Below, in pieces: positions 19,143 to 45,371 of a DNA stretch of 64,000 nucleotides; position 1 is the first letter of the stretch; each line of letters opens with the position of its first letter. The stretch is from an uncultured Phycicoccus sp. Its GTDB lineage: Bacteria; Actinomycetota; Actinomycetes; Actinomycetales; Dermatophilaceae. The notes under the pieces were generated by a model. That model had not been told where the DNA came from. It worked only from the letters and a program-made list of their open reading frames with translations, and did no database searches. Both the position numbers and the translations under genes were made by a program. The stretch spans positions 124,001-188,000 of the forward strand of contig NZ_CANLZR010000004.1 in the NCBI RefSeq assembly GCF_947495705.1, read 5' to 3'.

Positions 19143-19152
19143 TGTCAGGACA
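19143..19152 (+). promoter_or_regulatory. Putative GntR operator, site 1 (TGTCAGGACA)
   Basis: TGTCAGGACA in the leader of the Gfo/Idh gene at 19203, followed by TTAG as at site 2. It is one of five near-identical 10-mers found at promoters in the 19-45 kb island. A dyad TGT-N4-ACA is visible. Confidence 0.6.
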
Positions 19153-19202
19153 TTAGGCTGATAGTCTCTGCTCGACCACGGACCAGAAGGGTGTCACCTC
19201 GG

Positions 19203-20216
19203 ATGCGCATCGGACTCATCGGACTCGGCCGGATCGGCGCCTTCCACGCCGACACGCTCGCGGCGCTGGACCGCGTCGACCAGCTCGTCGTCACCGACCC
19301 GGTCGCCGCCGCGCTCGACGGCGTGACGAGCAGGATCGCCAAGGCCACCGCCGTCGACTCCCCGCAGGCCCTGCTCGACTCCGGGATCGACGGCGTCGTC
19401 ATCGCCGCCGCCACGAGTGCGCACGCCGAGCTGCTGCTCGCGGCGGTGGAGCGCGGCATCCCGACGTTCTGCGAGAAGCCGATCGCCGGCTCGGCGGACG
19501 AGGCGGTCGCCATCCGGGACCGGCTCCGCGACTCCGACGTCCCCGTCCAGATCGGCTACCCGCGGCGTTTCGACCCCGCCTTCGTCGCCGCCCGCGACGC
19601 CGTCCGGTCCGGAGCACTCGGGCGGGTGCACACGGTGCGCTCGACCACCCTCGACCCGGCCCCGCCGCCGGCCGCCTACCTCGCCGTCTCGGGTGGCATG
19701 TTCCGCGACTGCGCCGTCCACGACTTCGACGCCGTCCGCTGGGTGACCGGCCAGGAGGCCGTCGAGGTCTACGCCGTCGGCGCCGTCGACCCGGACGCCC
19801 CCGCCGAGCTCTATGCCGACAACGGCGACTGGTCGAGCGCGTCGACGCTCATCACCCTCAGCGACGGCACGATCGGGGTCGTGAGCAACACCCGGACCAA
19901 CGCCCGCGGGTACGACGTGCGCCTCGAGGTCCACGGCGTCGACGACTCCGTCGCCGCGGGTCTCGACGACGGCCTGCCGCTGCGCTCCACGGAGCCCGGT
20001 GCCACCTGGCCGGCCGGCCCGCCGCACACCTTCTTCATGGACCGCCTCACCGAGGCGTTCCGCCGGGAGCTCACGACGTTCTGTGCGGTCGCGGCCCACG
20101 AGGTCGCGTCACCCTGCACCGTCGAGGACGCGATGGGCACCACCTGGATCGCGGAGGCCGCCACCCGGTCGGCCACCGAGGGGCGCCCCGTCCGGATCGA
20201 CGAGGTCGCCCGCTGA
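19203..20216 (+). CDS. Gfo/Idh/MocA oxidoreductase, inositol 2-dehydrogenase-like
   Basis: A 337-aa dehydrogenase with GLIGLGRIGAFHADTL at the N-terminus, the EKPIAG lysine motif, GYPRRFDPAF, and the block GGMFRDCAVHDFDAVRW with the substrate-binding D and H of inositol dehydrogenases. It is clearly related to the gene at 42323 (same GRIGAFHA start, same RDCxVHDFD block) but diverged. ATG 19203 is preferred over an in-frame GTG at 19191, because the motif GRIG then sits at the usual distance. It converges with the LacI gene, 25 bp apart. Likely an NAD-dependent inositol or polyol dehydrogenase under GntR control. Confidence 0.87.
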   Translation: MRIGLIGLGRIGAFHADTLAALDRVDQLVVTDPVAAALDGVTSRIAKATAVDSPQALLDSGIDGVVIAAATSAHAELLLAAVERGIPTFCEKPIAGSADEAVAIRDRLRDSDVPVQIGYPRRFDPAFVAARDAVRSGALGRVHTVRSTTLDPAPPPAAYLAVSGGMFRDCAVHDFDAVRWVTGQEAVEVYAVGAVDPDAPAELYADNGDWSSASTLITLSDGTIGVVSNTRTNARGYDVRLEVHGVDDSVAAGLDDGLPLRSTEPGATWPAGPPHTFFMDRLTEAFRRELTTFCAVAAHEVASPCTVEDAMGTTWIAEAATRSATEGRPVRIDEVAR

Positions 20217-20241
20217 CCCGAACCCGGTCGGTGGGCGGGGC

Positions 20242-21288
20242 TCAGGCCCCGACCGGGGGTGCGGTGGTGCGGCGCTCGACGAGGGCGGGCCGCAGCAGGG
20301 CATGGGCCTCGGCCGGTGCCTCGCCGTCGAGCAGACCGCACAGGTGCGCCGCTGCCCGCATGCCCAGCTCCGCCAGGGGCTGGCCCACCGTCGTGAGCCC
20401 GATGGGCCGCATGCCCGCGAGCGCGGTGCCGTCGTAGCCGACGACCGAGACGTCCCCGGGCACGGCGAGCCCGGCATCGGCCACGGCCGCGAGCGCGCCC
20501 ATCGCGGCGAGGTCGTTGACCACGAACAGCGCCGTCGGCGGGACGTCGGCGCCCAACGCGGCACGGGCGCCGCGGTAGCCGCCCTCGTCACTGAAGGACC
20601 CGGGCACGACGGCGGCGAGGTCGCCGAGGCCGTGACGGCGCATGGCCTCCAGGTACCCGCGGCGCCGGTCGTCGGCGACGGCGCTGGCCCCGCCGTCGAT
20701 GTGGACGATGCGCCGGTGCCCGAGACCGACGAGGTGGTCGACGGCGAGCCCGGCCCCGAGGACGTCGTCGTTGCTGATCGACCCCAGGTGCGGGACCCCT
20801 CGGGGGGCGCTGCCGAGCACGACGGCCGGGCAGTCCGCCGAGACCGCCTCCTCCGCGCCGTGCGGCAGCCGGTGGCCGACGGCGAGTATGCCCTCGACGC
20901 GGAACTCGAGCAGCTTCTCGAGCTCGGCCCGCTCGGCCGCGGCGTCCTCGCCGCCGACGACGACGATGGTGCGGTAGTCGCGGCGGCGCGCCTCCGCCTG
21001 CACGGCGTCGAGCACGTCCGCGGTCATCGGGTTGTGCAGGTCGAGCACGAAGACCCCGATGGTGCGGGTCCGCCGGGCCACCAGGGCGTGCGCGGCGGCG
21101 TTGCGCCGGTACCCGATCTCCTCGGCGGCCGCGAGGATGAGCTCGCGGGTCTCGGGCGCGACCCGGGGCGCGTTCTGCAGGGCGAGCGACACCAGCGACT
21201 TCGAGACCCCGGCCCGGGCCGCGACGTCGCGGATCGTCGGCCGGCTCGGGCGCTCGAGGCCGGTGTCACCCCCGGCCTGCGACATCAC
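20242..21288 (-). CDS. LacI-family regulator of iol cassette 1
   Basis: A 348-aa LacI/GalR regulator. Helix-turn-helix plus hinge: TIRDVAARAGVSKSLVSLAL at about 18-37, then a sugar-binding domain (IGVFVLDLHNPM, LFVVNDLAAMGAL, VPGDVSVVGYDG). It starts at GTG 21288 or ATG 21285, overlapping the iolD stop by a few bases. It is the last gene of the cassette-1 operon and so probably autoregulated. The LacI-style palindrome at 28019-28036 in the operon promoter is its natural candidate site. Confidence 0.9.
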   Translation of the reverse strand: MMSQAGGDTGLERPSRPTIRDVAARAGVSKSLVSLALQNAPRVAPETRELILAAAEEIGYRRNAAAHALVARRTRTIGVFVLDLHNPMTADVLDAVQAEARRRDYRTIVVVGGEDAAAERAELEKLLEFRVEGILAVGHRLPHGAEEAVSADCPAVVLGSAPRGVPHLGSISNDDVLGAGLAVDHLVGLGHRRIVHIDGGASAVADDRRRGYLEAMRRHGLGDLAAVVPGSFSDEGGYRGARAALGADVPPTALFVVNDLAAMGALAAVADAGLAVPGDVSVVGYDGTALAGMRPIGLTTVGQPLAELGMRAAAHLCGLLDGEAPAEAHALLRPALVERRTTAPPVGA

Positions 21289-23129
21289 GTGCCTCGGCGC
21301 TGGGTGGCGACGCCCGCCTCGTGGGCGGCCCGGGCCTCGCGGACGCCCGCGAGCTCGCTCACCTCGGGCACGCCGACCTGCCAGAACAGCCCACCCTCGG
21401 TCCAGTCGGACTCCCGGACGTCGACGACGACGACGCTCGTGCGGTCGTGGCCACGGGCCTGCTCGATCGCGGCTTCGAGCTCGGGGATGGAGGACGCCCG
21501 CGTCGCGTAGGCACCCAGCGATGCCGCGTGGGCGACGAAGTCGACCCGGACGTCGCTGTTCGGGCCGCGCGCGTCACGGAGCATGTTGTTGTACGAGTTG
21601 CCGCCCTGGTTGCGCTGGAGCCGCTCGATGACGGCGAAGCCCGCGTTGTCGCAGACGATGAGGATGAACTTCTTGCCCGACAGCACCGAGGAGTAGATCT
21701 CGCTGTTGAGCATGAGGTAGGACCCGTCGCCGACGAGGCACAGCACCTCGCCCTCGGTCCGCGCGAACGCGGCACCCCAGGCGCCGGCCGTCTCGTAGCC
21801 CATGCACGAGAAGCCGTACTCGCAGTCGAAGCTCGCGACGGACTTGCTGAGCCAGTTGACGTTGAGCTCGCCCGGCAGCCCGCCCGCGGCGGTCATCACG
21901 TAGTCCTCGGGGGCGGCCGTGCGGTGCAGGGCCCCGATGATCTGCGCGTAGCTGAGCGGCAGCGCGCCGTCGTCGGCGATGCGGCCGGCGACGAACTCCT
22001 CCAGCCGGGTGCGCAGCTCGCTGCCGCGGTCGGTCCAGGCCTGCGGGGCGGCCCAGTCGCCGAGCAGCGACGACAGCTCGCCGAGGCTCTCGCGCGCGTC
22101 CCCGACGACGGGCGTCGAGAGGTGCTTCGTCGCGTCGAAGCGCGCCGTGTTGAGGGCCACGATGCGGGCGTCGTCGTCGAACAGGGTCCAGGACCCGGTG
22201 ACGAAGTCGTTGAGCCGGGTGCCGACGGCGAGGACGACGTCGGCCGCCGCGCAGGCCTCGTTGGGCTCGGCCGCACCGGTGACCCCGACCGGCCCGGCGT
22301 ACCTCGGGTGGTCCGCGACGAGCGAGGACTTGCCGGCGACGGTCTCGACGACGGGGATGCCGTGCCGCAGCGCGAAGTCGGCCAGCTCGGCCTCGGCGAG
22401 GGAGTAGTGGACCCCGCCCCCGGCGACGATCACCGGCCGCTCGGCCGCGCGCAGTGCGGCAGCCGCCCGCTCGAGCTCCTCGCGGTCGGCCCGCGGCCGC
22501 GGCACGCGGTGGACGACCGGCTCGAAGAAGCTCTCCGGGTAGTCGAACGCGGTGGCCGCGATGTCCTGGGGCAGCCCGAGGAACGCGGGCCCGCAGTCGG
22601 CGGGGTCGAGCAGGGTGCGGGTCACCTGCGGCAGCGAGCTGAGCAGCTGCGCGGGGTGGGTGATCCGGTCCCAGTAGCGCACGACGGGGCGGAAGCTGTC
22701 GTTGACGGTGGTGCTGGGGTCCCCGAAGTGCTCGACCTGCTGGAGCACGGGGTCGGGCAGCCGCGAGGTGAACGCGTCGCCGGAGATGAAGAGGGCCGGG
22801 ATGCGGTTCGACATGGCGACGCCGGCCGCGGTGACCATGTTCGTCGCGCCGGGCCCGATCGAGCTGGTCGCGACCATGACCTGGCGGCGCCGGGTGGCCT
22901 TGCCGAAGGCGACGGCAGCGAGCCCCATGCCCTCCTCGGTCTGGCCGCGCCAGACCGGGAGCTCGTCGCGGTGCTGCTCGAGCGCGTGGCCGAGGCTCGT
23001 GACGTTGCCGTGCCCGAAGATCGCGAAGACGCCGGGGTACAGCGGGACCTCGTGGCCGTCGACCTCGGTGCGCTGGGCGACGAGGTAGCGCACGAGGGCC
23101 TCGGCGGTGGTGATGCGGACGGTGCTCAT
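21285..23129 (-). CDS. iolD: IolD: trihydroxycyclohexane-1,2-dione hydrolase, cassette 1
   Basis: A ThDP-dependent ring-opening hydrolase of 614 aa that converts 3D-trihydroxycyclohexane-1,2-dione to 5-deoxy-glucuronate. The N-terminal domain has the IolD mark FAIFGHGNVTSLG, the middle domain GGGVHYSL, and the C-terminal ThDP/Mg site LVGDGSYLM near residue 467, with CDNAGFAVI completing the GDG...N motif. ATG 23129 (MSTVRITTAEALVRYL) fits the family start. It overlaps the neighbouring genes by 4 bp on both sides. It differs visibly from the second IolD at 37548 and is not a recent duplicate. Confidence 0.92.
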   Translation of the reverse strand: MSTVRITTAEALVRYLVAQRTEVDGHEVPLYPGVFAIFGHGNVTSLGHALEQHRDELPVWRGQTEEGMGLAAVAFGKATRRRQVMVATSSIGPGATNMVTAAGVAMSNRIPALFISGDAFTSRLPDPVLQQVEHFGDPSTTVNDSFRPVVRYWDRITHPAQLLSSLPQVTRTLLDPADCGPAFLGLPQDIAATAFDYPESFFEPVVHRVPRPRADREELERAAAALRAAERPVIVAGGGVHYSLAEAELADFALRHGIPVVETVAGKSSLVADHPRYAGPVGVTGAAEPNEACAAADVVLAVGTRLNDFVTGSWTLFDDDARIVALNTARFDATKHLSTPVVGDARESLGELSSLLGDWAAPQAWTDRGSELRTRLEEFVAGRIADDGALPLSYAQIIGALHRTAAPEDYVMTAAGGLPGELNVNWLSKSVASFDCEYGFSCMGYETAGAWGAAFARTEGEVLCLVGDGSYLMLNSEIYSSVLSGKKFILIVCDNAGFAVIERLQRNQGGNSYNNMLRDARGPNSDVRVDFVAHAASLGAYATRASSIPELEAAIEQARGHDRTSVVVVDVRESDWTEGGLFWQVGVPEVSELAGVREARAAHEAGVATQRRGT

Positions 23130-24304
23130 CGGCTCGTCTCCTTCAGGTCCTGCACGGTCTGCCAGCCCCGCGACTCCCACGAGTCGATGAGGGCCTGCTG
23201 CACGCTGACGACGTCGACGGCCTCGGCGAACCCCGGGTTGAACGTCGCGCCGGTGGCGAGCGCCTCGAGGAAGGCGAAGTCCTGGATGGTGATGAGGTCC
23301 TCGAACCCGATGCTGTTGGCCTTGCCGGGGACGAAGGCGCCGTGGAACGGGAAGCGCTCACCGCCGAAGACCGTCGTGTAGCCGGAGTTCGGGGAGTCGG
23401 TGACCGCGTAGTACTGCAGCTCGTTGATCCGCTCGTGGTTCCAGATGAGCGAGCCCTTGGTCCCGTAGATCTCGAAGGCGTTCTGGCTCTCGGGGCCGAC
23501 GACGGTGCGGCTGGCCTCGAAGGTGCCGGTGGCCCCGGCCTCGAAGCGGCAGAGCATCGAGGCGAAGTCCTCGTTCTCGACCTCCCCGGTCGGGTCCTGA
23601 GGGCTGCCGACGCCGTAGTGGCTGGCCGCGCCGGTGGGCAGGGGGCGGCGCGGGATCGTCGTGTTCTTCATGCCGACGACCTCGGTGATCGGCCCGACGA
23701 GGAACTGGGCCATCGCCACCGAGTGGCTGAGGATGTCGGAGGTCACGCCGTAGCCGGCCTGGTCGAGGAAGAACCGCCAGGTGAGCAGGCCCATGGGGTC
23801 GCTGCCGTACATCGACAGGAAGCGCCCGCGGTAGTGGGTGATCTCGCCGAGCGCGCCGTTGGCGATGAGCTCGCGGGCGTGCAGGACGAGCGGGGACCAG
23901 ATGTAGCAGTAGCCGACCCCGGTGGCGACGCCGGCCGCCTGCGCGTGCCCGAGGGCGGCGACGGCGTGCTCGGGCTTGCCGCCGATCGGCTTCTCGCTGA
24001 ACACCGCCTTCCCGGCGGCCGTCGCGGCCTCGATCATCGGCAGGTGCAGCATGTTGGGCGCGGTGATCCAGACGGCGTCCACGTCCGGCGCGGTGACGGC
24101 CTCGCGCCAGTCCTCCACCGCCCGCTCGAAGCCGAAGTCCGAGGTCGCCTGGCGACGGCGGTCGGCGACGGGGTCGGCGCACACGACGAGGTGCGGGTCG
24201 AAGGAGCGCTCGGGGAAGTGGCTCGGGATGCGCCGGGCCGAGCGGGAGTGGGCCTGGCCCATCCAGCCGAGCCCGAGCACGGCGATGCCGATGCGCGGCT
24301 TCAT
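23126..24304 (-). CDS. Gfo/Idh/MocA oxidoreductase inside iol cassette 1
   Basis: A 392-aa dehydrogenase, longer than the other four Gfo/Idh proteins here. It has AVLGLGWMGQAHSR at the N-terminus, SEKPIGG, and a long C-terminal domain with FLDQAGYGVTSDILSHSVAM. Family members with this GYGVTSDILSH block are found in inositol and other polyol clusters. It lies between iolB and iolD with 4-bp ATGA overlaps. It probably oxidises the inositol isomer (or epimerises through a keto form) that cassette 1 degrades. The exact substrate is not readable from sequence. Confidence 0.85.
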   Translation of the reverse strand: MKPRIGIAVLGLGWMGQAHSRSARRIPSHFPERSFDPHLVVCADPVADRRRQATSDFGFERAVEDWREAVTAPDVDAVWITAPNMLHLPMIEAATAAGKAVFSEKPIGGKPEHAVAALGHAQAAGVATGVGYCYIWSPLVLHARELIANGALGEITHYRGRFLSMYGSDPMGLLTWRFFLDQAGYGVTSDILSHSVAMAQFLVGPITEVVGMKNTTIPRRPLPTGAASHYGVGSPQDPTGEVENEDFASMLCRFEAGATGTFEASRTVVGPESQNAFEIYGTKGSLIWNHERINELQYYAVTDSPNSGYTTVFGGERFPFHGAFVPGKANSIGFEDLITIQDFAFLEALATGATFNPGFAEAVDVVSVQQALIDSWESRGWQTVQDLKETSR

Positions 24305-25188
24305 CGGGCCACCCGCCCTGCGGCGGAGGTCATCGGGAGACGGGGGTCCAGGCCCTGCTCGGCCCAGGCCTCGCGGATCCAGTGGTGGTCCGGGTCGTCG
24401 CAGAACGCCATGGTGCGGTCCTCGGCGGGGCCGGCGAGCACGTTGAGGAAGTACATCGGGTACTCCGGCTGGGCGGTCGAGGGTCCGTGGTAGCCCTCGG
24501 GGACGAGGTAGACGTCGCCGTCGAGGACGGTGACCGTCTCGTCGGAGGACCCGTCGACGGTGTAGACGCGGAACAGGCCCTGCCCGTGCGGGTGGCCGTG
24601 CGGCTCGTCGAGGCGTCCCATCCGGAAGTAGTAGATCTCCTCGTTCGTGGGCGCGCAGTCGCCGATGCCGTCGTGCCGGTGCGGGGGCCACGACGAGACG
24701 TTGCCGCCGGGGGTCAGCACCTCGCAGACGTTGATCTTGTGTGCGCCGGTGAACGAGTCGGGCGTCGCGATGTTCGTGACCTGGCGCGAGGCCCGGCCAC
24801 CGCCGCGGACCTCCACCGGCACGTCCTCGGCCGCGGTCACGTGCACCGGGAAGCGCTCGGTCGCCCGGGCCGTGCACAGCGCGACCTCGCCGGAGGCGGC
24901 CGTGATCTCGACGGTGGACCCCACCGGCAGGTAGATCCAGTCCGAGACGGCCGCGAAGACGCCGGTGCGCCCGCGCAGGGTGTGGGTCTCGCCGTCGACG
25001 GTGACCCGCACGTCGGTGGCCGACAGCGGCACGAGAACGCCCTCGACGCCGTCGAGCACGCGGCCGGCGGCGCCGGCGGCGAGGTCGAACACCTCGAGCC
25101 CGCTGTAGGCCCAGCCGGCCTGTTCGGGGGTGACGGTGACGAGGGTGTCGGCGGCGGCCAGGGCGCCGGCGCGGTGGTGGTTGCTCAC
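24301..25188 (-). CDS. iolB: IolB: 5-deoxy-glucuronate isomerase, cassette 1
   Basis: A cupin-fold isomerase of 295 aa that turns 5-deoxy-D-glucuronate into 5-dehydro-2-deoxy-gluconate. Family blocks: SWPPHRHDG with metal histidines, EEIYYFRM, and LVPEGYHGPS. The C-terminal block YFLNVLAGP and a DPDHHWIRE tail are also typical. ATG 25188 overlaps the Cgl0159-type gene stop. It acts after IolD and before IolC in the same operon. Confidence 0.93.
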   Translation of the reverse strand: MSNHHRAGALAAADTLVTVTPEQAGWAYSGLEVFDLAAGAAGRVLDGVEGVLVPLSATDVRVTVDGETHTLRGRTGVFAAVSDWIYLPVGSTVEITAASGEVALCTARATERFPVHVTAAEDVPVEVRGGGRASRQVTNIATPDSFTGAHKINVCEVLTPGGNVSSWPPHRHDGIGDCAPTNEEIYYFRMGRLDEPHGHPHGQGLFRVYTVDGSSDETVTVLDGDVYLVPEGYHGPSTAQPEYPMYFLNVLAGPAEDRTMAFCDDPDHHWIREAWAEQGLDPRLPMTSAAGRVAR

Positions 25189-26129
25189 GGGAGGGGCTCC
25201 TCGAGGGACGGGGTGGTCTGGTGGGCTGCGGGGTGGACGAGCGCGCCGGCACGGTCGACGGCGTCGCGCACGGTGAGCACCTCGGGGTAGAGCAGGGCGC
25301 GTCCGGGGACGAGGCCGCGGATGTTCGGGACCCGTAGGGCCAGCTCCCAGCCGGAGAAGACCTGCTCGTGGTCGCGGCCGGCGTCGCCGCCGAGCAGCAG
25401 GATGGGGCAGGTCGTGGCGGCCGCGACCCTCGCGGGGTCCACGGTGGCGGGGATCTTGAGCCAGGTGTAGGCGGACGAGGAGCCGAGGCCGCTGGCGATG
25501 GCGACCATCCGGACGAGGGCGTCCTCCGACGGGTCGAGCTCGACCCCGCCGTCGGCGCGGGCGCGGTACGGCAGCGGTTCGACCAGGGCCATGACCCCGG
25601 CGTCGGCCAGGGCCGTCGTGATGCGGGCGACGGTCTCGAGCGTGCGCGGCACGCCGGGGTCGGTCGGCGCGATGCGCAGCAGGGTCTTGCCGCCGTCGAG
25701 GCCGAGGGACACGACGTGCTCGACGTCGTAGGCGGTGACCCGGTCGTCGAGCTCCCAGTGGGCCCCGGCGATGCCGCCCCGGTTCATCGTGCCGACGGCG
25801 AGCCGGCCGTCGAGGGCGCCGAGGAGGGCGAGCTCCTCGAGGACGTCGGCACTGCCGAGCACCCCGTCGACCCGGGGGTCGGCCAGCCCGGTGACGAGCC
25901 GGTCCAGCAGCGAGTGACGGTCGGCGGCGGCCATCGGGTCGGAGCCGATGGCGAGCTTGCCGCGGGAGGTGTGGTCGGCGGCGAGCAGCAGCATCCGGCC
26001 GTCCTCGCCCACGAGCGGCCGGCGCCGCCGGTCCGCGAGCGCCCGTGCGAGCCGCCCGGGCTCGCGCACCCGCGCGTCGACGAGGGCCCGGTAGTCGGCG
26101 GCGCTGACGGCGTGGTCGTGCTCAGCCAT
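25185..26129 (-). CDS. Cgl0159-type (beta/alpha)8 protein, probable class I aldolase, cassette 1
   Basis: A 314-aa DeoC/FbaB-like TIM barrel, homologous to the protein encoded beside iolC in Corynebacterium glutamicum. Conserved in both copies of this window: AADH near the N-terminus, LDGGK (148), and TWLKIP with K225, a good candidate for a Schiff-base lysine. No class II IolJ aldolase is found, so this protein probably cleaves 2-deoxy-5-keto-gluconate-6-phosphate to malonate semialdehyde and DHAP. This is inference. It overlaps iolB by 4 bp and iolC by 8 bp. Confidence 0.8.
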   Translation of the reverse strand: MAEHDHAVSAADYRALVDARVREPGRLARALADRRRRPLVGEDGRMLLLAADHTSRGKLAIGSDPMAAADRHSLLDRLVTGLADPRVDGVLGSADVLEELALLGALDGRLAVGTMNRGGIAGAHWELDDRVTAYDVEHVVSLGLDGGKTLLRIAPTDPGVPRTLETVARITTALADAGVMALVEPLPYRARADGGVELDPSEDALVRMVAIASGLGSSSAYTWLKIPATVDPARVAAATTCPILLLGGDAGRDHEQVFSGWELALRVPNIRGLVPGRALLYPEVLTVRDAVDRAGALVHPAAHQTTPSLEEPLP

Positions 26130-28001: not shown

Positions 28002-28018
28002 GGGAGGACTCCGATGTC

Positions 28019-28036
28019 TGCTGGAACGGTCCAGCA
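28019..28036. promoter_or_regulatory. LacI-type operator of iol cassette 1
   Basis: Perfect inverted repeat TGCTGGA-ACGG-TCCAGCA, 18 bp, directly upstream of the first cassette-1 gene and about at the transcription start predicted from the -10 box at 28037-28042. Size and position match LacI-family operators. The operon encodes a LacI protein as its last gene (20242). Confidence 0.65.
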
Positions 28037-28066
28037 ATGTTCGCACATGCTCGCCCGCTTGTGCAA
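28037..28066 (-). promoter_or_regulatory. Promoter of iol cassette 1
   Basis: On the minus strand, TTGCAC (28066-28061), an 18-bp spacer, then GAACAT (28042-28037), a moderate sigma-70-type match. Predicted start near 28030 lies inside the palindrome at 28019-28036, giving simple repression and a leader of about 30 nt before GTG 28001. Confidence 0.45.
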
Positions 28067-28084
28067 GACCCGTGCGGCAGGCCC

Positions 28085-28965: not shown

Positions 28966-28975
28966 TGTAAGGACA
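28966..28975 (+). promoter_or_regulatory. Putative GntR operator, site 2 (TGTAAGGACA)
   Basis: TGTAAGGACA followed by TTAG, in the 99-bp gap between the divergent isomerase (28900) and transaldolase (29000) genes. It is identical in core to site 4 beside the GntR gene. A second weaker TTTGTCGGCT half lies at 28948-28957. Confidence 0.65.
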
Positions 28976-30091: not shown

Positions 30092-30110
30092 CCGCCACCG
30101 GGAGCTGACC

Positions 30111-32583: not shown

Positions 32584-32593
32584 TGTTCTGACA
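32584..32593 (-). promoter_or_regulatory. Putative GntR operator, site 3 (TGTCAGAACA on minus)
   Basis: The minus strand reads TGTCAGAACA, then ATATAG, 22 bp upstream of the mmsA ATG. One base differs from the consensus TGTMAGGACA. The position is close to the start of transcription, as expected for a repressor. Confidence 0.6.
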
Positions 32594-36454: not shown

Positions 36455-36460
36455 CTCAGG

Positions 36461-37547: not shown

Positions 37548-39533
37548 TCAGGGACGGAGCCTCCTCCTCCCCCGCCGGCCGGCGACCGGGACGGATGTGG
37601 GTGCTGTGAGTGGTCGTTGGGTCGCCTTGTGGCGGGTGTAGGCCTTGTGGGCCCGGGTGGTCGAGGCCAGGTCGCTGACCTCGCTGACGGGGACGTCCCA
37701 CCAGCTGTCGCTGTCGGGGGCGTGGACGAGGGGGTCGGTTTCGACGTGGATGACGACGGGGCCGCCGTCCTGGGGCCAGGCCCGGGCCTCGGCGATCGCG
37801 GCGTCGAGCTCGCTGCGGGAGTGGACCTCGATGACGTGGCAGCCGAGGCTGCGGGCGTTGGCGGCGAGGTCGACGGGCAGCAGACCGCCGTCGAGGCGGT
37901 GGCTCCCGGTGCCCCGCATCCGGTACGACGTGCCGAAGCGCTGCGAGCCGAGGCTCTCGGAGAGCGATCCGATCGAGTGGAAGCCGTGGTTCTGGACGAG
38001 GACGACGACGACCTTGACCCGCTCCTGGACGGCGGTGACGAGCTCGGTCGGCATCATGAGGTAGCCGCCGTCCCCGACCATCGCGAACACCTCGCGGCTC
38101 GGGTCGGCCAGCTTGATGCCGATCGACGCGGGGACCTCGTAGCCCATGCAGGAGTAGCCGTACTCGACGTGGTACGCCTTGCGGTCGCGGACCCGCCACA
38201 GCTTGTGGAGGTCGCCGGGCATCGAGCCCGCGGCGCAGAGCACGACGTCGCGGGGGTCGGTCTGCTCGTTGACCGCACCGAGGACCTGGCCCTGGGTGAG
38301 CAGGCCCGGTGCGAGGCGCTTGGTGACCGACCGCGGCGGGTCGTAGGTGGCCTCGACGAGACCGTCCCACTCCTTCCACAGGGTGGCCTGCCGGCGGCGG
38401 TAGCCCGACGTCACGGACCAGCCGTTCAGGGCCGTGGTGAGGGCGGTCAGCGCCTCGCGGGCGTCGGCGACGACGGACAGCCCGCTGTGCTTGCCGGCGT
38501 CGAACGCGGCGATGTTGAGGTTGACGAAGCGGACCCCGTCGGCCTGGAACGCGGTGCGGGACGCGGTCGTGAAGTCGCTGAAGCGGGTCCCGATGCCGAG
38601 AACGACGTCGGCCTCGCGGGCGATGGTGTTCGCCGCGGTGGTGCCCGTGGAGCCGACGGCACCCAGCTGCTGCGGGTGGCCGTGGGGCAGCGAGCCCTTC
38701 CCGGCCTGCGCCTCGCCGACGGGGATGCCGGTGGCCTCGCAGAAGGCCCGCAGCGCCTCCTCGGCGCCGGAGTAGTGCACGCCACCCCCAGCCACGATCA
38801 TCGGGCGCTTCGCCGAGCGGATGACGGCGGCGGCGGCCTCGATGCGCCCGGACTCCGGCACCGGGCGGGCGACGTGCCAGGTGCGCTCGGCGAACAGCTC
38901 CAGCGGCCAGTCGAACGCCTCGGCCTGGACGTCCTGCGGCAGTGACACGGTCACCGCACCGGTCTCGGCCGGGTCGGTGAGGACGCGCATCGCGCCGAGC
39001 AGGGCCGACGGCAGCTGCTCGGGCCGGGTCACCTCGTCGAAGAACTTCGACAGCGGGCGGAAGGCGTCGTTGACCGTGACGTCGCCGGCCCACGGCAGCT
39101 CCAGCTCCTGGAGCACCGGGGCGGAGACGCGGGTCGCGAAGGTGCCGCTGGGCAGGAGCAGGACCGGCAGGCGGTTGATCGTGGCGAGTGCGGCGCCGGT
39201 GAGCATGTTCGTCGAGCCGGGGCCCACCGAGGCGGTGCACGCCCAGGTCTGGAGTCGGTCCTTCTGCCGCGCGTACGCCACCGAGGTGTGCACCATCGCC
39301 TGCTCGTTGCGGGCCAGGACGTACGGCAGGCCGGGCGCCTCGCCGGCGTCGGTGGCGCGGACCTCCTCCTGGAGCAGCGCCTGGCCGATCCCGGCGACGT
39401 TGCCGTGGCCGAAGATGCCGAAGCATCCCGCGAAGAGGCGCCGGCGCTCGCCGTCGCGCTCGGTCCACTGCTGCGCGAGGAAGCGCACGGTGGCCTGGGC
39501 GACGGTCAGCCGCACGGTGCCGGACGGGCTCAT
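37548..39533 (-). CDS. iolD: IolD: trihydroxycyclohexane-1,2-dione hydrolase, cassette 2
   Basis: A second ThDP-dependent IolD, 661 aa, longer than the cassette-1 protein by 47 residues. It has FGIFGHGNVAGIG near the N-terminus, GGGVHYSG in the middle, the ThDP/Mg site VGDGGYLMM near residue 486 with QNHGFHSIG, and a basic Arg-rich tail. ATG 39533 (MSPSGTVRLTVAQATVRFL) overlaps the iolB stop. It is only partly similar to the protein at 21285, so the two cassettes are old paralogues or were acquired separately. Confidence 0.92.
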   Translation of the reverse strand: MSPSGTVRLTVAQATVRFLAQQWTERDGERRRLFAGCFGIFGHGNVAGIGQALLQEEVRATDAGEAPGLPYVLARNEQAMVHTSVAYARQKDRLQTWACTASVGPGSTNMLTGAALATINRLPVLLLPSGTFATRVSAPVLQELELPWAGDVTVNDAFRPLSKFFDEVTRPEQLPSALLGAMRVLTDPAETGAVTVSLPQDVQAEAFDWPLELFAERTWHVARPVPESGRIEAAAAVIRSAKRPMIVAGGGVHYSGAEEALRAFCEATGIPVGEAQAGKGSLPHGHPQQLGAVGSTGTTAANTIAREADVVLGIGTRFSDFTTASRTAFQADGVRFVNLNIAAFDAGKHSGLSVVADAREALTALTTALNGWSVTSGYRRRQATLWKEWDGLVEATYDPPRSVTKRLAPGLLTQGQVLGAVNEQTDPRDVVLCAAGSMPGDLHKLWRVRDRKAYHVEYGYSCMGYEVPASIGIKLADPSREVFAMVGDGGYLMMPTELVTAVQERVKVVVVLVQNHGFHSIGSLSESLGSQRFGTSYRMRGTGSHRLDGGLLPVDLAANARSLGCHVIEVHSRSELDAAIAEARAWPQDGGPVVIHVETDPLVHAPDSDSWWDVPVSEVSDLASTTRAHKAYTRHKATQRPLTAPTSVPVAGRRGRRRLRP

Positions 39534-40471
39534 CGGGCGTCTCCTACGGGGAGTCGGGGGTCGACGGGCTGGTCGGCCCAGCGCTCGCGGACCCAGGCGT
39601 GGGCCGGGTCGTCGCAGATCCGCCAGGCCCGCTCGGGACCGGGACCGGCCATGACGTTGAGGTAGTAGAGGTCGGCGTCGGGCGCGGCGGTCGCCGGGCC
39701 GTGCCAGCCGTGCGGGACGAGGACGACGTCGCCGGTCCGGACCTCGGCGAGCACGTCGAGCGGTCGCTCGGCGGAGGACCCGTAGACGCGCTGGTAGCCG
39801 ACGGGGTCGGTCCCCCGCTCGTCGATGGAGCGCGCCTCGAAGTAGTAGATCTCCTCCAGCTCGGTCTCGGCTCCGTCGCGGTGCTCGTCGTGCTTGTGCG
39901 GCGGCCACGAGCTCCAGTTGCCGGCCGGGGTGATGACCTCGCAGACCAGGACGGAGTCCGCGTCCAGGACGTCCGGCAGGCCGAACGAGCGGACCTCGCG
40001 CGAGGCCGTCCCGGCGCCGCGCAGCTCGACCGGGACCTCCCGGGCCGCGATGTGCCGGAACGGCTTGGGCTCGTCCGCCTTCCGGGCCGTCGAGCCCGCG
40101 AGCGCCACCCGGGCGTGGCCGTCGGCCTCGCCAGTGACGGTGACCTCGCTTCCACGACCGGCGTAGGCGACGTCGGTGGCGCCGGCGAACACCGAGTCAC
40201 GACCGGCGAGACGGACCTCGTGGCGCGTGCCGTCGGCCTCGACGACGGCGACCCGCACCGCACCGGCGAGCGGGACGACGAGGACCTCGTGGTCGCCGAG
40301 CGCGACGGTGCGCGAGTCGGTGCCGGCGAGCGTGGCCACGTGGAGGCGGGTGTGCTCCCAGCCGGGGTGCGTGGCGTCGACGGCGACGTCCCAGCCGTCA
40401 CCGCCGGCGCTGCCGAGGGGCAGGACCCAGTGCGCGTTGTCACGCCCGGTCCCGGACGTGCGGGCGGTCAT
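39530..40471 (-). CDS. iolB: IolB: 5-deoxy-glucuronate isomerase, cassette 2
   Basis: A 313-aa cupin-type isomerase. Blocks NWSSWPPHKHDEH, ETELEEIYYFEARS and VPHGWHGPATAAP hold the metal ligands, and YYLNVMAGPGPERAW and DPAHAWVRERW match the end of the cassette-1 copy. ATG 40471 overlaps the aldolase gene stop by ATGA. It performs the same step as the gene at 24301, possibly with a different expression signal. Confidence 0.93.
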   Translation of the reverse strand: MTARTSGTGRDNAHWVLPLGSAGGDGWDVAVDATHPGWEHTRLHVATLAGTDSRTVALGDHEVLVVPLAGAVRVAVVEADGTRHEVRLAGRDSVFAGATDVAYAGRGSEVTVTGEADGHARVALAGSTARKADEPKPFRHIAAREVPVELRGAGTASREVRSFGLPDVLDADSVLVCEVITPAGNWSSWPPHKHDEHRDGAETELEEIYYFEARSIDERGTDPVGYQRVYGSSAERPLDVLAEVRTGDVVLVPHGWHGPATAAPDADLYYLNVMAGPGPERAWRICDDPAHAWVRERWADQPVDPRLPVGDAR

Positions 40472-41358
40472 CGCGACCCTCCGTGGACGAGCTCGGCGGC
40501 GATGTCGACCGCGGCCGCGACGTCGCCGCCGGGCGGGTAGAGCAGGGCGCGGCCGACGACGAGCCCGCGCACGGCGGGGATGTCGAGGGCCCGGCCCCAC
40601 GCGGCGTATGTGTCGTGCGGGTCACCCTGGGGGTCCCCACCGAGGAGCAGCGTGGGCAGCGTCGTCGCGTCCATCACCCGGGGGAGGTCGTCGACGACGG
40701 GCAGCTTGAGCCAGGTGTGGGCGCTGGAGGCCCCGAGGCCTGCCGCGACGTGGATCGAGCGGATCGTCGAGTCGGGGTCGAGGAGGTTGCGGACCCGGCC
40801 GTCCTCGACGACCGACCAGAACGGCTCGACCATCGCCATGAGCCCGCGGGCGGCGAGCTCGGTGACGGCGCGGGCACTGGCCTCGAGCGTGGCGGCGGTC
40901 CCCGGGTCCGCGAGAGCCACCCGGGTGAGCATCTTGCCGCCGTCGAGCCCACGGGCGGCGATCTCGGCGGCGGTGTACCCGGTGAAGCGGTCGTCGAGCT
41001 CGAACGTCGCGCCCTGGAGGCCGCCCCGGTTCATCGAGCCGATGACGACCTTGTCCTCGAGGGCGCCCATGAGGAGCAGGTCGTCGAGCACGTCGGCGGT
41101 GCCGAGGACCCCGTCGACGCCCGGGCGGGACACAGCGGCGGCCAGCCGGTCGAGGAGGTCCGAGCGGCTCGCCATCGCCATCGCGTCGTCGCGGACCCCG
41201 AGGGCACCGCGGGCCGGGTGGTCGGCGGCCACCACGAGGAGGCGTCCGTCCTCGCGCAGGATCGGGCGGCGCGAGCGGGCCGCCCAGCCCTGCTCGACGG
41301 CGTGCGGGGTCCGGGCGCGGACCTCGGTCAGCTGCGCGGGGCGCACGGCGGTCGTCAC
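40468..41358 (-). CDS. Cgl0159-type (beta/alpha)8 protein, probable class I aldolase, cassette 2
   Basis: A 296-aa paralogue of the protein at 25185. The conserved AADH (45-48), LDGGK (142) and TWLKLP with K218 line up with the cassette-1 copy, as do GTADVLDDLLLMGAL and GSMNRGG. The GTG start at 41358 overlaps the iolC stop. Its fixed position between iolC and iolB in both cassettes, with no IolJ, argues that it is the aldolase for 2-deoxy-5-keto-gluconate-6-phosphate. This is inference from context and the conserved lysine. Confidence 0.8.
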   Translation of the reverse strand: MTTAVRPAQLTEVRARTPHAVEQGWAARSRRPILREDGRLLVVAADHPARGALGVRDDAMAMASRSDLLDRLAAAVSRPGVDGVLGTADVLDDLLLMGALEDKVVIGSMNRGGLQGATFELDDRFTGYTAAEIAARGLDGGKMLTRVALADPGTAATLEASARAVTELAARGLMAMVEPFWSVVEDGRVRNLLDPDSTIRSIHVAAGLGASSAHTWLKLPVVDDLPRVMDATTLPTLLLGGDPQGDPHDTYAAWGRALDIPAVRGLVVGRALLYPPGGDVAAAVDIAAELVHGGSR

Positions 41359-42320
41359 GCCATCCCCCGCTCGGCCAGGGCCGCCTCGACCTCGTAGGTC
41401 GTCGGCATGGCCGTGGAGCACTCGAGGCGCGAGGCGACGATCGCCCCCGCGACGTTCGCGAACTCGATGGCGCGGCGCAGGTCCCAGCCGGCGAGGAGGC
41501 CGTGCACGAGGGCCCCGCCGAACGCGTCGCCCGCGCCGAGGCCGTTGACGACGGTGACGGGGAACGGCTCCACCTCGACCCGCTCGTCGGGGGTCACGGC
41601 GAGGACGCCCTTGGGTCCCTGCTTGACGACAGCGAGGTCGAGGCCGCGCTCGAGGAGGGCGTCGGCGGCGCGGTGCGGGTCGGTCTCGCCGACCGCCACC
41701 TCGCACTCCTCCCGGTTGCCCACGGCGACGGTCACGTGCTCGAGGGCCTTGCCGACCTGCTCGCTCGCCTCGGCGGGGTCGGCCCAGAACATCGGCCGGT
41801 AGTCGAGGTCGAGGACGGTGTGCGCACGCCGGGCGCGGGCCTCCCAGGCCGCGAAGTGCGTGCCGCGCGAGGGCTCCTGCGACAGGCCGGTGACCGTGGC
41901 CCAGAAGACCCGGGCGTCGCGGACGGCGTCGAGCGGGACGTCGCCGGGGGTGAGGAGCAGGTCCGGCGCGGAGGGGTATCGGTAGAAGTACAGCGGGAAG
42001 TCGTCGGGCGGGAAGACCTCGCAGAAGGTGACCGGCGTGGGCGGTCCGTCGCCCTCGAGGACCGAGATGTAGCGCGGGTCGACGCCGAGACGGGCCGCCT
42101 CACGTCGCACGTAGCGGCCGAACGGGTCGTCCCCGACCTTCGTGACGAGGGCGACGTTGCGTCCGTGCCGGGCGGCGGCGACGGCGACGTTGGTCGCGCT
42201 GCCCCCGAGGAACTTCCGGAAGGTGTGCACGTCGGCCAGCCCCACCCCGTGCTCGAGGGGGTAGACGTCGACCCCGGTGCGGCCGATGGCGACGACGTCG
42301 TGGGCGGGGGTGGGCGTCAT
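41355..42320 (-). CDS. iolC: IolC: 5-dehydro-2-deoxygluconokinase, cassette 2
   Basis: A PfkB kinase of 321 aa: GRTGVDVYPLEHGVGLADV, substrate motif GGSATNVAVAAARHG, and catalytic GLGAGDAFGGAL. The YFYRYPSAPDLLLTP region, a C-terminal part of the lid, is IolC-typical. It starts 2 bp after the iolG-like gene stop, and its stop overlaps the aldolase GTG. Confidence 0.91.
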   Translation of the reverse strand: MTPTPAHDVVAIGRTGVDVYPLEHGVGLADVHTFRKFLGGSATNVAVAAARHGRNVALVTKVGDDPFGRYVRREAARLGVDPRYISVLEGDGPPTPVTFCEVFPPDDFPLYFYRYPSAPDLLLTPGDVPLDAVRDARVFWATVTGLSQEPSRGTHFAAWEARARRAHTVLDLDYRPMFWADPAEASEQVGKALEHVTVAVGNREECEVAVGETDPHRAADALLERGLDLAVVKQGPKGVLAVTPDERVEVEPFPVTVVNGLGAGDAFGGALVHGLLAGWDLRRAIEFANVAGAIVASRLECSTAMPTTYEVEAALAERGMA

Positions 42321-42322
42321 CG

Positions 42323-43357
42323 TCACGCGTCCTGGGTCACGGGCACGGAGGCCGGCACGGTGGGGATCTCGGACATCGCGACGGGCCGGCGCTCGGCCCG
42401 GGAGAGCTCGCAGGCCTCGGCGATGCGGAACGCCTCGAGGGCGTCGCGGGCGGTGCACGGGCTGGGGACGCGGCCGGCGGCGACGTCGAAGAACGCGGTG
42501 AGCTCGGCGACGTAGGCGGGGCGGAACCGCTCCATGAACGACCAGTGCTGCGGGCCGCGGGGGAAGTCGACGCCCGGCTCGGCCGACCGGAGCGCCAGCG
42601 AGTCGTCGAGGCCGACGGCGATCGCGCCGTCCTCGCCCATGACCTCCATCCGCACGTCGTGTCCGCCGCCGGAGTAGCGGGTGGCCGTCGCGGTGACGAG
42701 GGTGCCGTCGTCGAGAGTGAGGATCGCGGCGGCGGTGTCGACGTCCCCGGCCGCGCCGAAGAACGAGGCGCCGGTGTTCTCACCGGTGGCATACACGGTG
42801 GCGACCTCGCGCCCGGTCACGAACCGGATGATGTCGAAGTCGTGGACGGAGCAGTCGCGGAACAGGCCGCCGCTCGTGGGGATGTAGCCCGGGTGGGGCG
42901 GGGCCTGGTCGTGGGTCAGGGCCCGGATGGCGTGGATCTTCCCGAGCTCGCCCGAGGCCACGGCCGCCCGCGCCCGGCGGTACCCCTCGTCGAAGCGCCG
43001 CTGGAAGCCGATGTGGACCGGGGCCTCGCTCGCCTCGGCGAGGCGGGTCAGCTCGAGGGTCTCCTCGAGGGTGGCGGCCAGCGGCTTCTCGCAGAAGGTC
43101 GGCACGCCGGCGGCGAGGCCCGCCCGCAGCAGTGGGGCGTGGCCCGGCGTGGCGGTTGTGATGACGAACCCGTCGAGGTCGGCGGCGAGCAGGGTGTCGA
43201 CGTCCGGCGCCACCTCGAGCCCGAGCTCGGCGGCCACTGACCGGGCGAGCGCGGGGTCGGCGTCGGTGACGACGACGGCCTCCACCGCGTCGAGCCCGAT
43301 GAGGGTCTCGGCGTGGAAGGCGCCGATCCGCCCCACTCCAGCCAGGCCGATCCGCAT
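42323..43357 (-). CDS. iolG: Inositol 2-dehydrogenase-like Gfo/Idh protein, first gene of cassette 2
   Basis: A 344-aa NAD-dependent dehydrogenase: GLAGVGRIGAFHAETL, EKPLAAT with the catalytic Lys, GFQRRFDEGYRRA, and GGLFRDCSVHDFDIIRFVTG with the D and H that contact inositol. It catalyses the first step, myo-inositol to 2-keto-inositol. ATG 43357 has AAGGAG 6 nt upstream. It heads the long cassette-2 operon and is divergent from the GntR gene, with site 4 between. A paralogue is at 19203. Confidence 0.88.
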   Translation of the reverse strand: MRIGLAGVGRIGAFHAETLIGLDAVEAVVVTDADPALARSVAAELGLEVAPDVDTLLAADLDGFVITTATPGHAPLLRAGLAAGVPTFCEKPLAATLEETLELTRLAEASEAPVHIGFQRRFDEGYRRARAAVASGELGKIHAIRALTHDQAPPHPGYIPTSGGLFRDCSVHDFDIIRFVTGREVATVYATGENTGASFFGAAGDVDTAAAILTLDDGTLVTATATRYSGGGHDVRMEVMGEDGAIAVGLDDSLALRSAEPGVDFPRGPQHWSFMERFRPAYVAELTAFFDVAAGRVPSPCTARDALEAFRIAEACELSRAERRPVAMSEIPTVPASVPVTQDA

Positions 43358-43446
43358 CCGCACTCCTTCGTGTCGGGCACTCGCCGTGCGAGCGCCACTG
43401 GTGGCGGACCCACTCTCGCCCGAGGGAAGACACCATGTCAAGAGTT

Positions 43447-43456
43447 TGTCCTTACA
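43447..43456 (-). promoter_or_regulatory. Putative GntR operator, site 4 (TGTAAGGACA on minus)
   Basis: The minus strand reads TGTAAGGACA in the gap between the divergent iolG-like and GntR genes. On the minus strand a TTGACA (43441-43436) follows it. Its position allows both self-control of the regulator and control of the cassette. Confidence 0.65.
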
Positions 43457-43517
43457 TTCTGATATGAGGACCTCAGGAACGTCGGATTTCCTCACCCTCT
43501 GCTCTACAGTTCTGCTC

Positions 43518-44258
43518 GTGGACCCGCAACTGGTGAGTGTCGAGATCGACCGGGACTCCCCGGTGCCGCTGTACCACCAGCTGTCGGAGCAGCTGAGCGC
43601 CGCGATCTCGGACGGTCGGCTCCAGCCGGGTGACGCCTTCGAGAACGAGGTGGCCCTGGCCCAGCGTCTCGGCCTGTCCCGTCCGACGGTGCGGCGCGCC
43701 ATCCAGGAGATGGTCGACCAGGGGCTGCTCGTGCGCCGCCGCGGCCTCGGCACCCACGTCGCGAACCGCAAGGTGCACCGGCGGGCCGAGCTGACGAGCC
43801 TCTGGGACGACCTGCGGCGGGCAGGCCGGCACCCGAGCACCACGATCGTGCGGTTCGAGACCGTCGTCGACGAGCGGGCCGCCTCGGCCCTCGACCTCGA
43901 CCCCGACACGCCCCTGCTGCTCGTCGTGCGGGTGCGCACGGCCGATGACGACCCCGTCGCCTACATGCACAACTGGCTGCCGCCGCAGTACTCCGACATC
44001 AGCGAGGCCGAGCTCGAGGAGACCGGCCTCTACGCGGCGCTGCGCGCCCGCGGGGTGCGCCCCGTCGTCGCCCGGCAGACCTTCGGGGCCCGGATGCCGA
44101 CGAGCGCGGAGCGCAAGCACCTCGGCATCCGCGGCCAGCACCCGGTGCTGACGATGACCCGGATGGCGTTCGACGCCGCCGGCCGCGCCGTCGAGTTCGG
44201 CGACCACTGCTACCGGGCAGAGGACTACTCCATCGACATCATGGTCGACGAGCGCTGA
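43518..44258 (+). CDS. GntR-family (HutC-like) transcriptional regulator
   Basis: A 246-aa regulator: N-terminal winged helix (SPVPLYHQLSEQLSAAISDG, then NEVALAQRLGLSRPTVRRAI) and a C-terminal UTRA effector domain (LLVVRVRTADDDPVAYMHNW, EETGLYAALR, VLTMTRMAFD). GTG 43518 (DPQLVSVEIDRDSP) is chosen over an in-frame ATG at 43464 because it has the normal family length and a TACAGT box 7 nt upstream, so the mRNA is probably leaderless. It probably binds TGTMAGGACA at the five sites in the island and responds to an inositol intermediate. It plays the role of IolR in corynebacteria. Confidence 0.87.
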   Translation: MDPQLVSVEIDRDSPVPLYHQLSEQLSAAISDGRLQPGDAFENEVALAQRLGLSRPTVRRAIQEMVDQGLLVRRRGLGTHVANRKVHRRAELTSLWDDLRRAGRHPSTTIVRFETVVDERAASALDLDPDTPLLLVVRVRTADDDPVAYMHNWLPPQYSDISEAELEETGLYAALRARGVRPVVARQTFGARMPTSAERKHLGIRGQHPVLTMTRMAFDAAGRAVEFGDHCYRAEDYSIDIMVDER

Positions 44259-44273
44259 CCCCTCCCCCTGCTT

Positions 44274-44351: not shown

Positions 44352-44360
44352 GTAGGGCGG

Positions 44361-44405
44361 GGTCAGGAGAGTCGGGGTCAGGAGAGTCGGGGTCAGGGGA
44401 GGCCG
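44361..44405. repeat. 15-bp tandem repeat at the end of the iolE-like gene
   Basis: Two perfect copies of GGTCAGGAGAGTCGG (44361-44375, 44376-44390) and a third partial copy (44391-44405) that carries the stop codon of the minus-strand gene. Its AGTCGG resembles the tip of the neighbouring hairpin repeat. Confidence 0.8.
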
Positions 44406-45328
44406 AGGCCTAGCGAGGCGAGGTACTCGCGGGTCCGGACGGCGATGGGCAGCGGCTGGTCCTTCGGGCAGCCGTACATGTCCTGCTCGCAGACGACGTA
44501 CAGCTCCTTGTCGAGGTCGGCGAGCGCCTCGATGAGGTCGCGCATGTCCGGCAGGCCCGCCGGGGGCGCGACGGAGACACCGGCGTGGACCGCCTTGACG
44601 AACGGCCAGTCCTCGTCGTGCGCCTGCTGGACCAGCGCCTGGTCCATGGCCTTGATGTGCACGTACGAGATGCGCTCGGGGTACTTGCGGCACAGCTCCA
44701 TCGGGTCGCCGGCGCCGTAGACGATGTGCCCGGTGTCGAGGCAGAAGCCCACGTACTCGGGGTCGGTGGCCTCGAAGATCCGGTCGATGTCCGCCGGGGT
44801 CTCGATGTGGCTATCACCGTGCGGGTGCAGCACCATCTTCAGGCCGTAGTCCTCCTTCATGATCCGGCCCAGGCGGTCGGCGTTGCGGACGTAGAGGTTC
44901 CAGGCGTCCGTCGTGAGGACCTTGTCGTCGATGTACGCGCCGGTCTTCTCGTCGCGGAACATCGGGGGCAGGTGGACGACGTACTCGGCGCCGACGGCGG
45001 CGTGCGTCTCACCGATCGCACGGAAGAGCGTCTCGGTATCGGCCCAGGCCTCCTCCTTGTGCAGGATGCCCCAGCCGGTGCCGGCGACGACCCGGAAGCC
45101 CCGGGCGTCCATCTCGGCCTTGAGCCGGGCCGGGTCGGTCGGGAAGTAGCCGAAGGGGCCGGTCTCCATGACCGAGAAGCCGGCCTCCGCCATCTCGTCG
45201 AGGGCGACGCCCCAGTCGATCTGCTTCTCGTCCTGCGGGAACCAGACCCCCCACTGGTCGGGGCACACCCCGAGCGTGAGCTTCGAGTAGCGCGGGTCGG
45301 TGGTGTTGCGGGCCTTGGACTCGGGCAC
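44393..45328 (-). CDS. IolE-like TIM-barrel protein (second inosose dehydratase candidate)
   Basis: A 311-aa AP-endonuclease-2 family protein: LGVCPDQWGVWF and FSVMETGPFGYFPTDPARL at the start, MVLHPHGDSHIETP, GFCLDTGHIVYG and YVHIKAMDQ as metal-site segments. It matches inosose dehydratase/2-keto-inositol dehydratase type proteins. GTG 45328 has AAAGGA 7 nt upstream. It is transcribed alone, with GntR-type site 5 just upstream, and probably supplies the dehydratase step missing from cassette 2. Hairpin repeats C and D flank the gene. Confidence 0.84.
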   Translation of the reverse strand: MPESKARNTTDPRYSKLTLGVCPDQWGVWFPQDEKQIDWGVALDEMAEAGFSVMETGPFGYFPTDPARLKAEMDARGFRVVAGTGWGILHKEEAWADTETLFRAIGETHAAVGAEYVVHLPPMFRDEKTGAYIDDKVLTTDAWNLYVRNADRLGRIMKEDYGLKMVLHPHGDSHIETPADIDRIFEATDPEYVGFCLDTGHIVYGAGDPMELCRKYPERISYVHIKAMDQALVQQAHDEDWPFVKAVHAGVSVAPPAGLPDMRDLIEALADLDKELYVVCEQDMYGCPKDQPLPIAVRTREYLASLGLGLP

Positions 45329-45361
45329 GGCGGGGTCCTTTCACGGACGTGCGACAGCAAA

Positions 45362-45371
45362 TGTCAGGTCA
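45362..45371. promoter_or_regulatory. Putative GntR operator, site 5 (TGTCAGGTCA)
   Basis: TGTCAGGTCA in the leader of the minus-strand iolE-like gene at 45328, 34 bp from its start, followed by TACTGTCAT. One base differs from the consensus TGTMAGGACA. Confidence 0.5.

Follow-up and report, generated by a model that had tools for sequence, protein, structure and literature searches.

Does a 10-bp sequence that recurs before several inositol genes mark the operators of one regulator, and is that regulator encoded among the same genes? The question is raised by a stretch of 64,000 nt from an uncultured Phycicoccus sp. (assembly GCF_947495705.1, contig NZ_CANLZR010000004.1, positions 124,001-188,000, forward strand), which is the whole of the DNA analysed here, is called the window below, and forms part of one contig of a 3.54-Mb genome. 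Inositol- or sugar-type genes fill the window from 15.6 to 45.3 kb, followed by lysS, and comprise two cassettes of inositol catabolic (iol) genes, an ABC transporter, mmsA, a transaldolase-like gene (tal), a PhyH gene, two LacI-family regulators and one GntR-family regulator, with several Gfo/Idh and TIM-barrel genes also within the locus. A preliminary description had listed five sites at promoters of these genes and had proposed the GntR protein encoded at 43518 as their probable regulator. We consider it highly probable that this protein is the local IolR, which represses as a dimer through five strong operators and probably one weaker operator and is released by an inositol-derived ligand. 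On the comparisons given below, the repeated site is very probably where the GntR protein of the same locus docks, and an autoregulated IolR-type regulon is well supported.

Five repeated sites, rare in the genome and tied to GntR relatives

The five sites listed in the preliminary description proved exact in coordinate and strand, and their placement at five promoters stands with two amendments: the site at 28966 stands between divergent genes and may act on the isomerase-led cassette-1 operon as well as on the transaldolase gene, and a weaker sixth site at 28038 had not been listed. The predicted operators are the following, with scores from the position weight matrix (PWM) described below.

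19143..19152, plus strand: operator TGTCAGGACA, in the gap between the PhyH gene and iolG1, 50 bp before iolG1 (19203); PWM 25.5
28966..28975, plus strand: operator TGTAAGGACA, in the divergent gap that separates the leftward, isomerase-led operon of cassette 1 (28900) from the rightward transaldolase gene (29000); PWM 23.2
32584..32593, minus strand: operator TGTCAGAACA, ending 21 bp ahead of mmsA (start at 32562), within the long string of genes formed by cassette 2, the ABC transporter and mmsA; PWM 24.9
43447..43456, minus strand: operator TGTAAGGACA, between the divergent iolG2 and GntR genes; PWM 23.7
45362..45371, plus strand: operator TGTCAGGTCA, upstream of the minus-strand gene iolE2, 33 bp from its start (45328); PWM 21.4
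28038..28047, plus strand: weaker candidate operator TGTTCGCACA, upstream of the minus-strand gene iolE1, 36 bp from its start (28001, chosen by script); PWM 11.8

The strict pattern TGTMAGRWCA, which was derived from the sites themselves, matches five times in the window, a count not attained in any of 100 shuffles, against 0.24 matches expected. The whole genome contains seven matches to this pattern and none to the reversed control pattern; five of the seven lie inside 26 kb of the locus, and the motif is not common at unrelated promoters. The two other genomic matches score 4.5 and below 6.7 with the PWM, one overlapping a stop codon and the other abutting a Shine-Dalgarno sequence. A genome search for WTGTNNNNACAW gives six matches, of which five, 28038 among them, belong to this locus; the site at 45362 falls outside this set because it ends in TCA. 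With the relaxed pattern TGTNANRWCA there are 19 matches, compared with 8 in reversed controls, and the loose form alone is therefore noisy.

Because the strict pattern was fitted post hoc, we made an independent motif test on upstream regions of 200 bp. These came from named GntR relatives, the best 80 of 573, none of which is known to belong to this genome. The 10-mer most enriched in these regions was TGTCAGGACA, found in 32 of the 80 against 1 of 762 background windows. A PWM was refined from that seed with 76 of the 80 regions, each of which contributed its best site, so that the weakest sites carry no weight of their own. The consensus of this PWM reads WWTGTCAGGACAWW; measured from the start of the match, the distance is 40-99 bp for 64 of the 76 sites. 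When this PWM was applied to the window, the five sites of the preliminary description took ranks 1-5 (25.5, 24.9, 23.7, 23.2 and 21.4), followed by 28038 (11.8) and a coding match at 43157 (10.7), while the highest score in 100 Markov control windows was 17.4. Another PWM, built from 52 more distant loci (49 sites), again placed the same five sites first and 28038 sixth.

The GntR regulator and the conservation of its predicted sites

The proposed regulator adjoins the inositol catabolic genes and is given as follows.

43518..44258, plus strand: GntR-family regulator of the HutC subfamily, proposed IolR, with a PF00392 helix-turn-helix domain and a PF07702 UTRA domain

The N-terminal GntR winged helix-turn-helix scores 52.6 bits against a cut-off of 27, and the C-terminal UTRA domain 116.6 bits against 23.8; no other UTRA protein was found in this genome. 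Among the matches listed, the nearest named relative is from Phycicoccus flavus (Intrasporangiaceae, 85%). The nearest solved relative is 2ra5 (phmmer E 9.7e-68, matching over the whole length), which we take to be S. coelicolor SCO6256; further solved relatives are YvoA, DasR and 2p19, the last matching over the UTRA domain (E 5e-26) and presumably a C. glutamicum protein, although the literature look-up did not confirm this.

In the 80 named relatives, a loose site is found within 250 bp upstream of GntR in 63 and a strict site in 36. A search of 297 genomes of the order gave a GntR match in 134. Thirty of these loci were examined, one being that of this genome, and a match of TGTNANNNCA type lies within 150 bp in 29 of them, all except locus L011; the two sets overlap in part (e.g., L020/L043 and G431/L038). 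Away from GntR, the 80 loci carry 50 sites above 20 bits, distributed over 37 loci, where 0.40 would be expected for the whole set. Of these 50, none falls inside a cluster gene and 38 precede one by no more than 350 bp; 17 of these 38 placements involve a sugar-binding-protein gene, which is a broad family. Genes of iol type are present in the examined stretch of 59 of the 80 relatives, and iolB, C or D in 54.

We also surveyed 186 genomes of the family, counting GntR relatives at E up to 1e-60. GntR was found in 115 and iolD in 118 of them, and iolD is present in 108 of the 115 GntR-positive genomes against 10 of the 71 GntR-negative ones. From these ten exceptional genomes, iol stretches of 20 kb could be taken in six cases and of 3-5 kb in four. 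Five iol-positive genomes without a GntR match showed no strong site in the 20 kb around iolD: in G423, G320, G361 and G323 no site exceeds 12 bits (maxima 4.9, 5.1, 7.8 and 11.4), and in G441 the peak is 15.4 with a second site at 14.9. The remaining 20-kb stretch, that of G369, has a 23.2-bit site, and a 47%-identical GntR that was missed by the cut-off lies 6.4 kb away. No site above 3 bits was found in three of the four stretches of 3-5 kb.

Genomes of the same genus provide another check. In four congeners (G437, G235, G431 and G433), sites stand before most of the same genes, and the altered bases still fit the motif. The site before GntR scores 22.8 in G437, 26.0 in G235, 27.2 in G431 and 26.5 in G433. 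The tal site scores 27.4, 23.9 and 26.0 in the tal/hpi gap of G437, G235 and G431, and 21.2 before tal in G433. The iolG1 site is kept in the gap between the PhyH gene and iolG1 at 26.2, 26.8 and 26.3 in the same three genomes; in G433, where the gap is longer, a 26.6-bit site follows the PhyH gene far from iolG1. The mmsA site scores 23.3 (G437), 17.1 (G235) and 24.5 (G431), and in G433, where mmsA follows iolG2, there is no site directly before mmsA. The iolE2 site is present in G437 (18.6) and G433 (19.9), both with the unusual TCA end of 45362, and iolE2 itself was not seen in the examined stretches of G235 and G431. The counterpart of the weaker site before iolE1 has the same core in G431 (19.0), where cassette 1 lies on another contig, and a variant core in G235 (13.5). 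When TGTHAGRWCA was searched in nine congeners, 51 matches were obtained, of which 29 were scored, one at a contig end and 21 others being left unscored; all 16 scored matches above 20 bits stand beside genes homologous to those of the window's iol locus, and none of the 13 below 11 bits stands beside iol-locus genes.

The earlier proposal of GntR 43518 as the regulator thus finds support in the motif learned from relatives only, the conservation in congeners, the co-occurrence with iolD, the standing of the protein as the sole UTRA protein found, and the absence of strong sites from the five iol-positive genomes without a GntR match.

Several observations weigh against this reading. In 17 of the 80 named relatives not even the loose motif is found within 250 bp upstream, and in 10 of the 80 GntR appears without another cluster gene in the examined stretch. 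G428, a GntR-negative genome of 88% completeness, carries a site of 18.5 bits ahead of tal and thus contradicts the simple rule, unless a gap hides its GntR; GntR-positive G311 has no site above 11 bits just before GntR, its best one (19.5) lying before iolG2. The genome-wide excess of TGTHAGRACA is small (544 matches against 469 for the reversed pattern in GntR-positive genomes, 217 against 235 in GntR-negative ones), this comparison of genome counts being significant but weak, and the genomes are related, so that the counts are not independent events. Scores above 11.8 are expected 0.27 times per window in the Markov control; the site at 28038 is by itself not significant in the window, and for this reason it rests on its position and recurrence. 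The genome-wide search was done by pattern, not by PWM.

Some further loci may be recorded here. Just before Gfo0 (15583-16626) of the window, a CTCAGGACG core at 16645-16654 with a PWM score of 4.9 looks like a decayed operator, and the Gfo0 sites of G235 and G433 score 14.2 and 20.8; the decay in this strain would represent a possible loss of one regulon member. Locus L160 (G433:C12) is a second cluster having sites of 20.8-27.1 bits on a contig other than that of its GntR, possibly a split regulon in a congener. A record named for Stenotrophobium rhamnosiphilum (L107), a gammaproteobacterium, combines this type of GntR with iol genes and with two predicted operators that lie 2227 and 2245 bp upstream of the GntR gene, 18 bp from each other; the gene and site may have been transferred together. 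A third iolD-like type, 44% to iolD2, occurs with an mmsA-like gene and LacI relatives in L183-L186 (G330, G331, G335 and G334), and these stretches contain no site above 9 bits.

Gene content, sign of control and other explanations

The preliminary description held that the regulator would tie together dispersed genes whose membership in a single system would otherwise be missed. This was overstated for the window, where the genes are neighbours in one contiguous inositol locus of about 30 kb, but it has some force in G431 with its cassette 1 on another contig. The other features of the locus, named by profile matches, are listed below.

19203..20216, plus strand: iolG1, inositol 2-dehydrogenase-like (TIGR04380, 289 bits, below the cut-off of 355)
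20242..28900, minus strand: cassette 1, with isomerase-like gene, iolE1, iolC1, Cgl0159-like gene, iolB1, Gfo/Idh gene, iolD1 and LacI regulator
29000..30995, plus strand: transaldolase-like gene (PF00923), then TIM-barrel isomerase-like gene
31060..32562, minus strand: mmsA/iolA, methylmalonate-semialdehyde dehydrogenase (TIGR01722, 692 bits)
32621..37456, minus strand: sugar ABC transporter (rhizopine-type sugar-binding protein, permease, ATPase), Gfo/Idh gene and TIM-barrel isomerase-like gene
37548..42326, minus strand: cassette 2, iolC2, Cgl0159-like gene, iolB2 and iolD2 (TIGR04382, PF22649, TIGR04378 and TIGR04377, above cut-offs)
42323..43357, minus strand: iolG2, inositol 2-dehydrogenase-like gene at the head of cassette 2 (TIGR04380, 271 bits, below the cut-off of 355)
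44393..45328, minus strand: iolE2, inosose dehydratase-like (TIGR04379, 153 bits, below the cut-off of 290)
16647-17732 and 20242-21288, within the locus: LacI-family regulators LacI0 and LacI1

In the profile search, the iolD, iolB and iolC copies pass the curated cut-offs; the iolG and iolE copies stay below theirs (iolE1 at 154 against 290 for TIGR04379), their names being those of the best match, and the rhizopine-type sugar-binding protein is likewise below its NCBIfam cut-off. In the gap between LacI0 and the PhyH gene, a direct repeat GAGGTGTTT-CT-GAGGTGTTT at 17759-17778 could be the operator of LacI0 itself.

The sign of control was considered from the promoter layout, with -10 and -35 assignments made by eye. 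At tal, TAGTCT or TAGTGT stands 3 bp upstream of the operator in the window and in four congener promoters, and the operator would then cover the start point. At iolG1, the operator is followed after 9 bp by the hexamer TAGTCT/TAGCAT in three of the four promoters compared (those of the window, L135 and L140, with L130 as the exception), and at mmsA the operator ends 21 bp from the ATG. The places of these three operators favour repression. At iolG2, the operator is upstream of TTGACA, a probable -35 at 43436-43441, at a distance of 5 bp, and is centred near -46; this place suits either sign of control and counts against plain repression insofar as it is also usual for activators, being close to the class II position. 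That GntR binds the sites as an activator or dual regulator is nevertheless unlikely, because the operators past the conserved -10-like hexamer of tal, just before the mmsA start codon and shortly before the -10-like hexamer of iolG1 speak for repression and because the GntR-type IolR of C. glutamicum is described as a repressor in passages of two reports (PMC9603128, PMC8634428).

As to binding, the sign of control (repression, not activation), the extent of the operons and the ligand, we infer the following. The GntR dimer would bind the near-palindrome WWTGTC-NN-GACAWW at the predicted operators, which would control the GntR gene/iolG2 pair, iolG1, the divergent isomerase-cassette-1/transaldolase unit, iolE1, mmsA and iolE2; GntR/HutC proteins bind near-palindromes as dimers. 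Without inositol, GntR would block promoter access, and an inositol-derived ligand accommodated in the UTRA domain would release it, leading to joint expression of the two iol cassettes, mmsA and the ABC transporter that follows cassette 2. Inositol or an intermediate as the inducer is a natural guess based on analogy with C. glutamicum.

Binding of the sites by one of the two LacI-family proteins, and not by GntR, appears very unlikely. Both genes lie inside the locus, LacI regulators often control sugar genes, and in G429 and G359 a site (24.1 and 20.2) lies between LacI1 and Gfo0. However, a LacI relative was found by tblastn in only 9 of the 80 loci against 63 with the loose motif, which thus follows GntR, and in G369 and G311 cassette 1 occurs with LacI1 and no site in that stretch (maxima 5.6 and 5.1). 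Furthermore, the LacI-type palindrome, reportedly TGNNANCGNTNNCA, has no match in the window, a relaxed LacI half pattern has 7 matches there against 16.9 expected, and an inverted-repeat search in eight stretches over the gaps gave no common long palindrome among the pairs listed. The weakest explanation, that the five matches are due to chance or to a general promoter element of a high-GC genome, can claim the two further strict matches at unrelated places in the genome, but it is practically negligible, chance being ruled out by the shuffles, the clustering within 26 kb, the independent PWM ranking with its Markov control and the congener conservation, and a general element by the scarcity of the motif in this genome.

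Returning to GntR as the repressor, we tentatively raise the possibility, itself rather doubtful, that cassette 1 (iolE1-C1-Cgl0159-B1-Gfo1-D1-LacI1) is a separable module captured by the GntR of cassette 2, the operators before iolE1 and in the isomerase/transaldolase gap being putatively gained in the genus. Cassette 1 looks like a separate module because it occurs without GntR operators in the stretches of G369 (L178) and G311 (L181) mentioned above. If the capture is true, LacI1 and GntR would both gate the same pathway copy, even where cassette 1 lies on another contig, as in G431.

Significance and comparison with known systems

Control of this kind is known from C. glutamicum IolR and S. 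coelicolor SCO6974, and what is new here is a well-supported case covering two iol cassettes. One operator set over two non-identical cassettes lends itself well to the study of regulon growth, and the analysis gives a testable operator definition, WWTGTCAGGACAWW, with a named regulator for inositol loci across several Actinomycetota groups. Inositol clusters are described as frequent in this phylum in a passage of one report (PMC9430895).

Concerning the site itself, the preliminary description had likened the five sites to the Corynebacterium IolR consensus. This consensus, reportedly KGWCHTRACA but not found in the literature searched, reads TGTYADGWCM when reversed and fits the PWM consensus TGTCAGGACA, and it is exact at 19143 and 45362; the other three sites are not exact, and an unrelated place in the window, 7512, fits as well. 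Klaffl et al. 2013 is said to be the reference for C. glutamicum IolR. In the literature passages searched, supplementary files lying outside their scope, no binding sequence was printed for a GntR-type IolR, and the matches listed for six exact 10-mers in literature text looked unrelated by title.

Regulators that do the same job of iol operon control can belong to protein families different from GntR: the IolR of Bacillus is of DeoR type and that of Sinorhizobium is reportedly RpiR-like, as judged by title. SCO6256 is said, likewise by title, to regulate conditionally the same myo-inositol genes as SCO6974. The latter is a GntR-type repressor of myo-inositol catabolism in S. coelicolor, according to part of a report (PMC6295645), and both proteins are likened here by their described role, not by binding sites.

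The HutC subfamily provides a comparison at the level of the operator. HutC-type operators are described, in a passage of one report, as GT and AC boxes 4 nt apart (PMC4494728). The system of the window resembles them in the helix-turn-helix and UTRA domains of its protein and in the spacing of the boxes at four of the five sites (19143, 28966, 32584 and 43447), and it differs in that 45362 has TC in place of AC and that the core between the boxes is MAGR-like, whereas the usual HutC core is MTAK.

A parallel in function is C. glutamicum IolR, a GntR-type protein that represses inositol genes without myo-inositol, as stated in parts of two reports (PMC9603128, PMC8634428), and whose operator in the iolT1 promoter is described in part of a third (PMC5948850). 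The present system has the traits of an actinobacterial GntR-type IolR in that the regulator gene adjoins inositol catabolic genes and that predicted operators stand at iol promoters and at its own promoter. The two systems differ in uptake and gene content: C. glutamicum uses the secondary transporters IolT1 and IolT2 for inositol, whereas the Phycicoccus locus combines an ABC transporter with two iol cassettes in one place.

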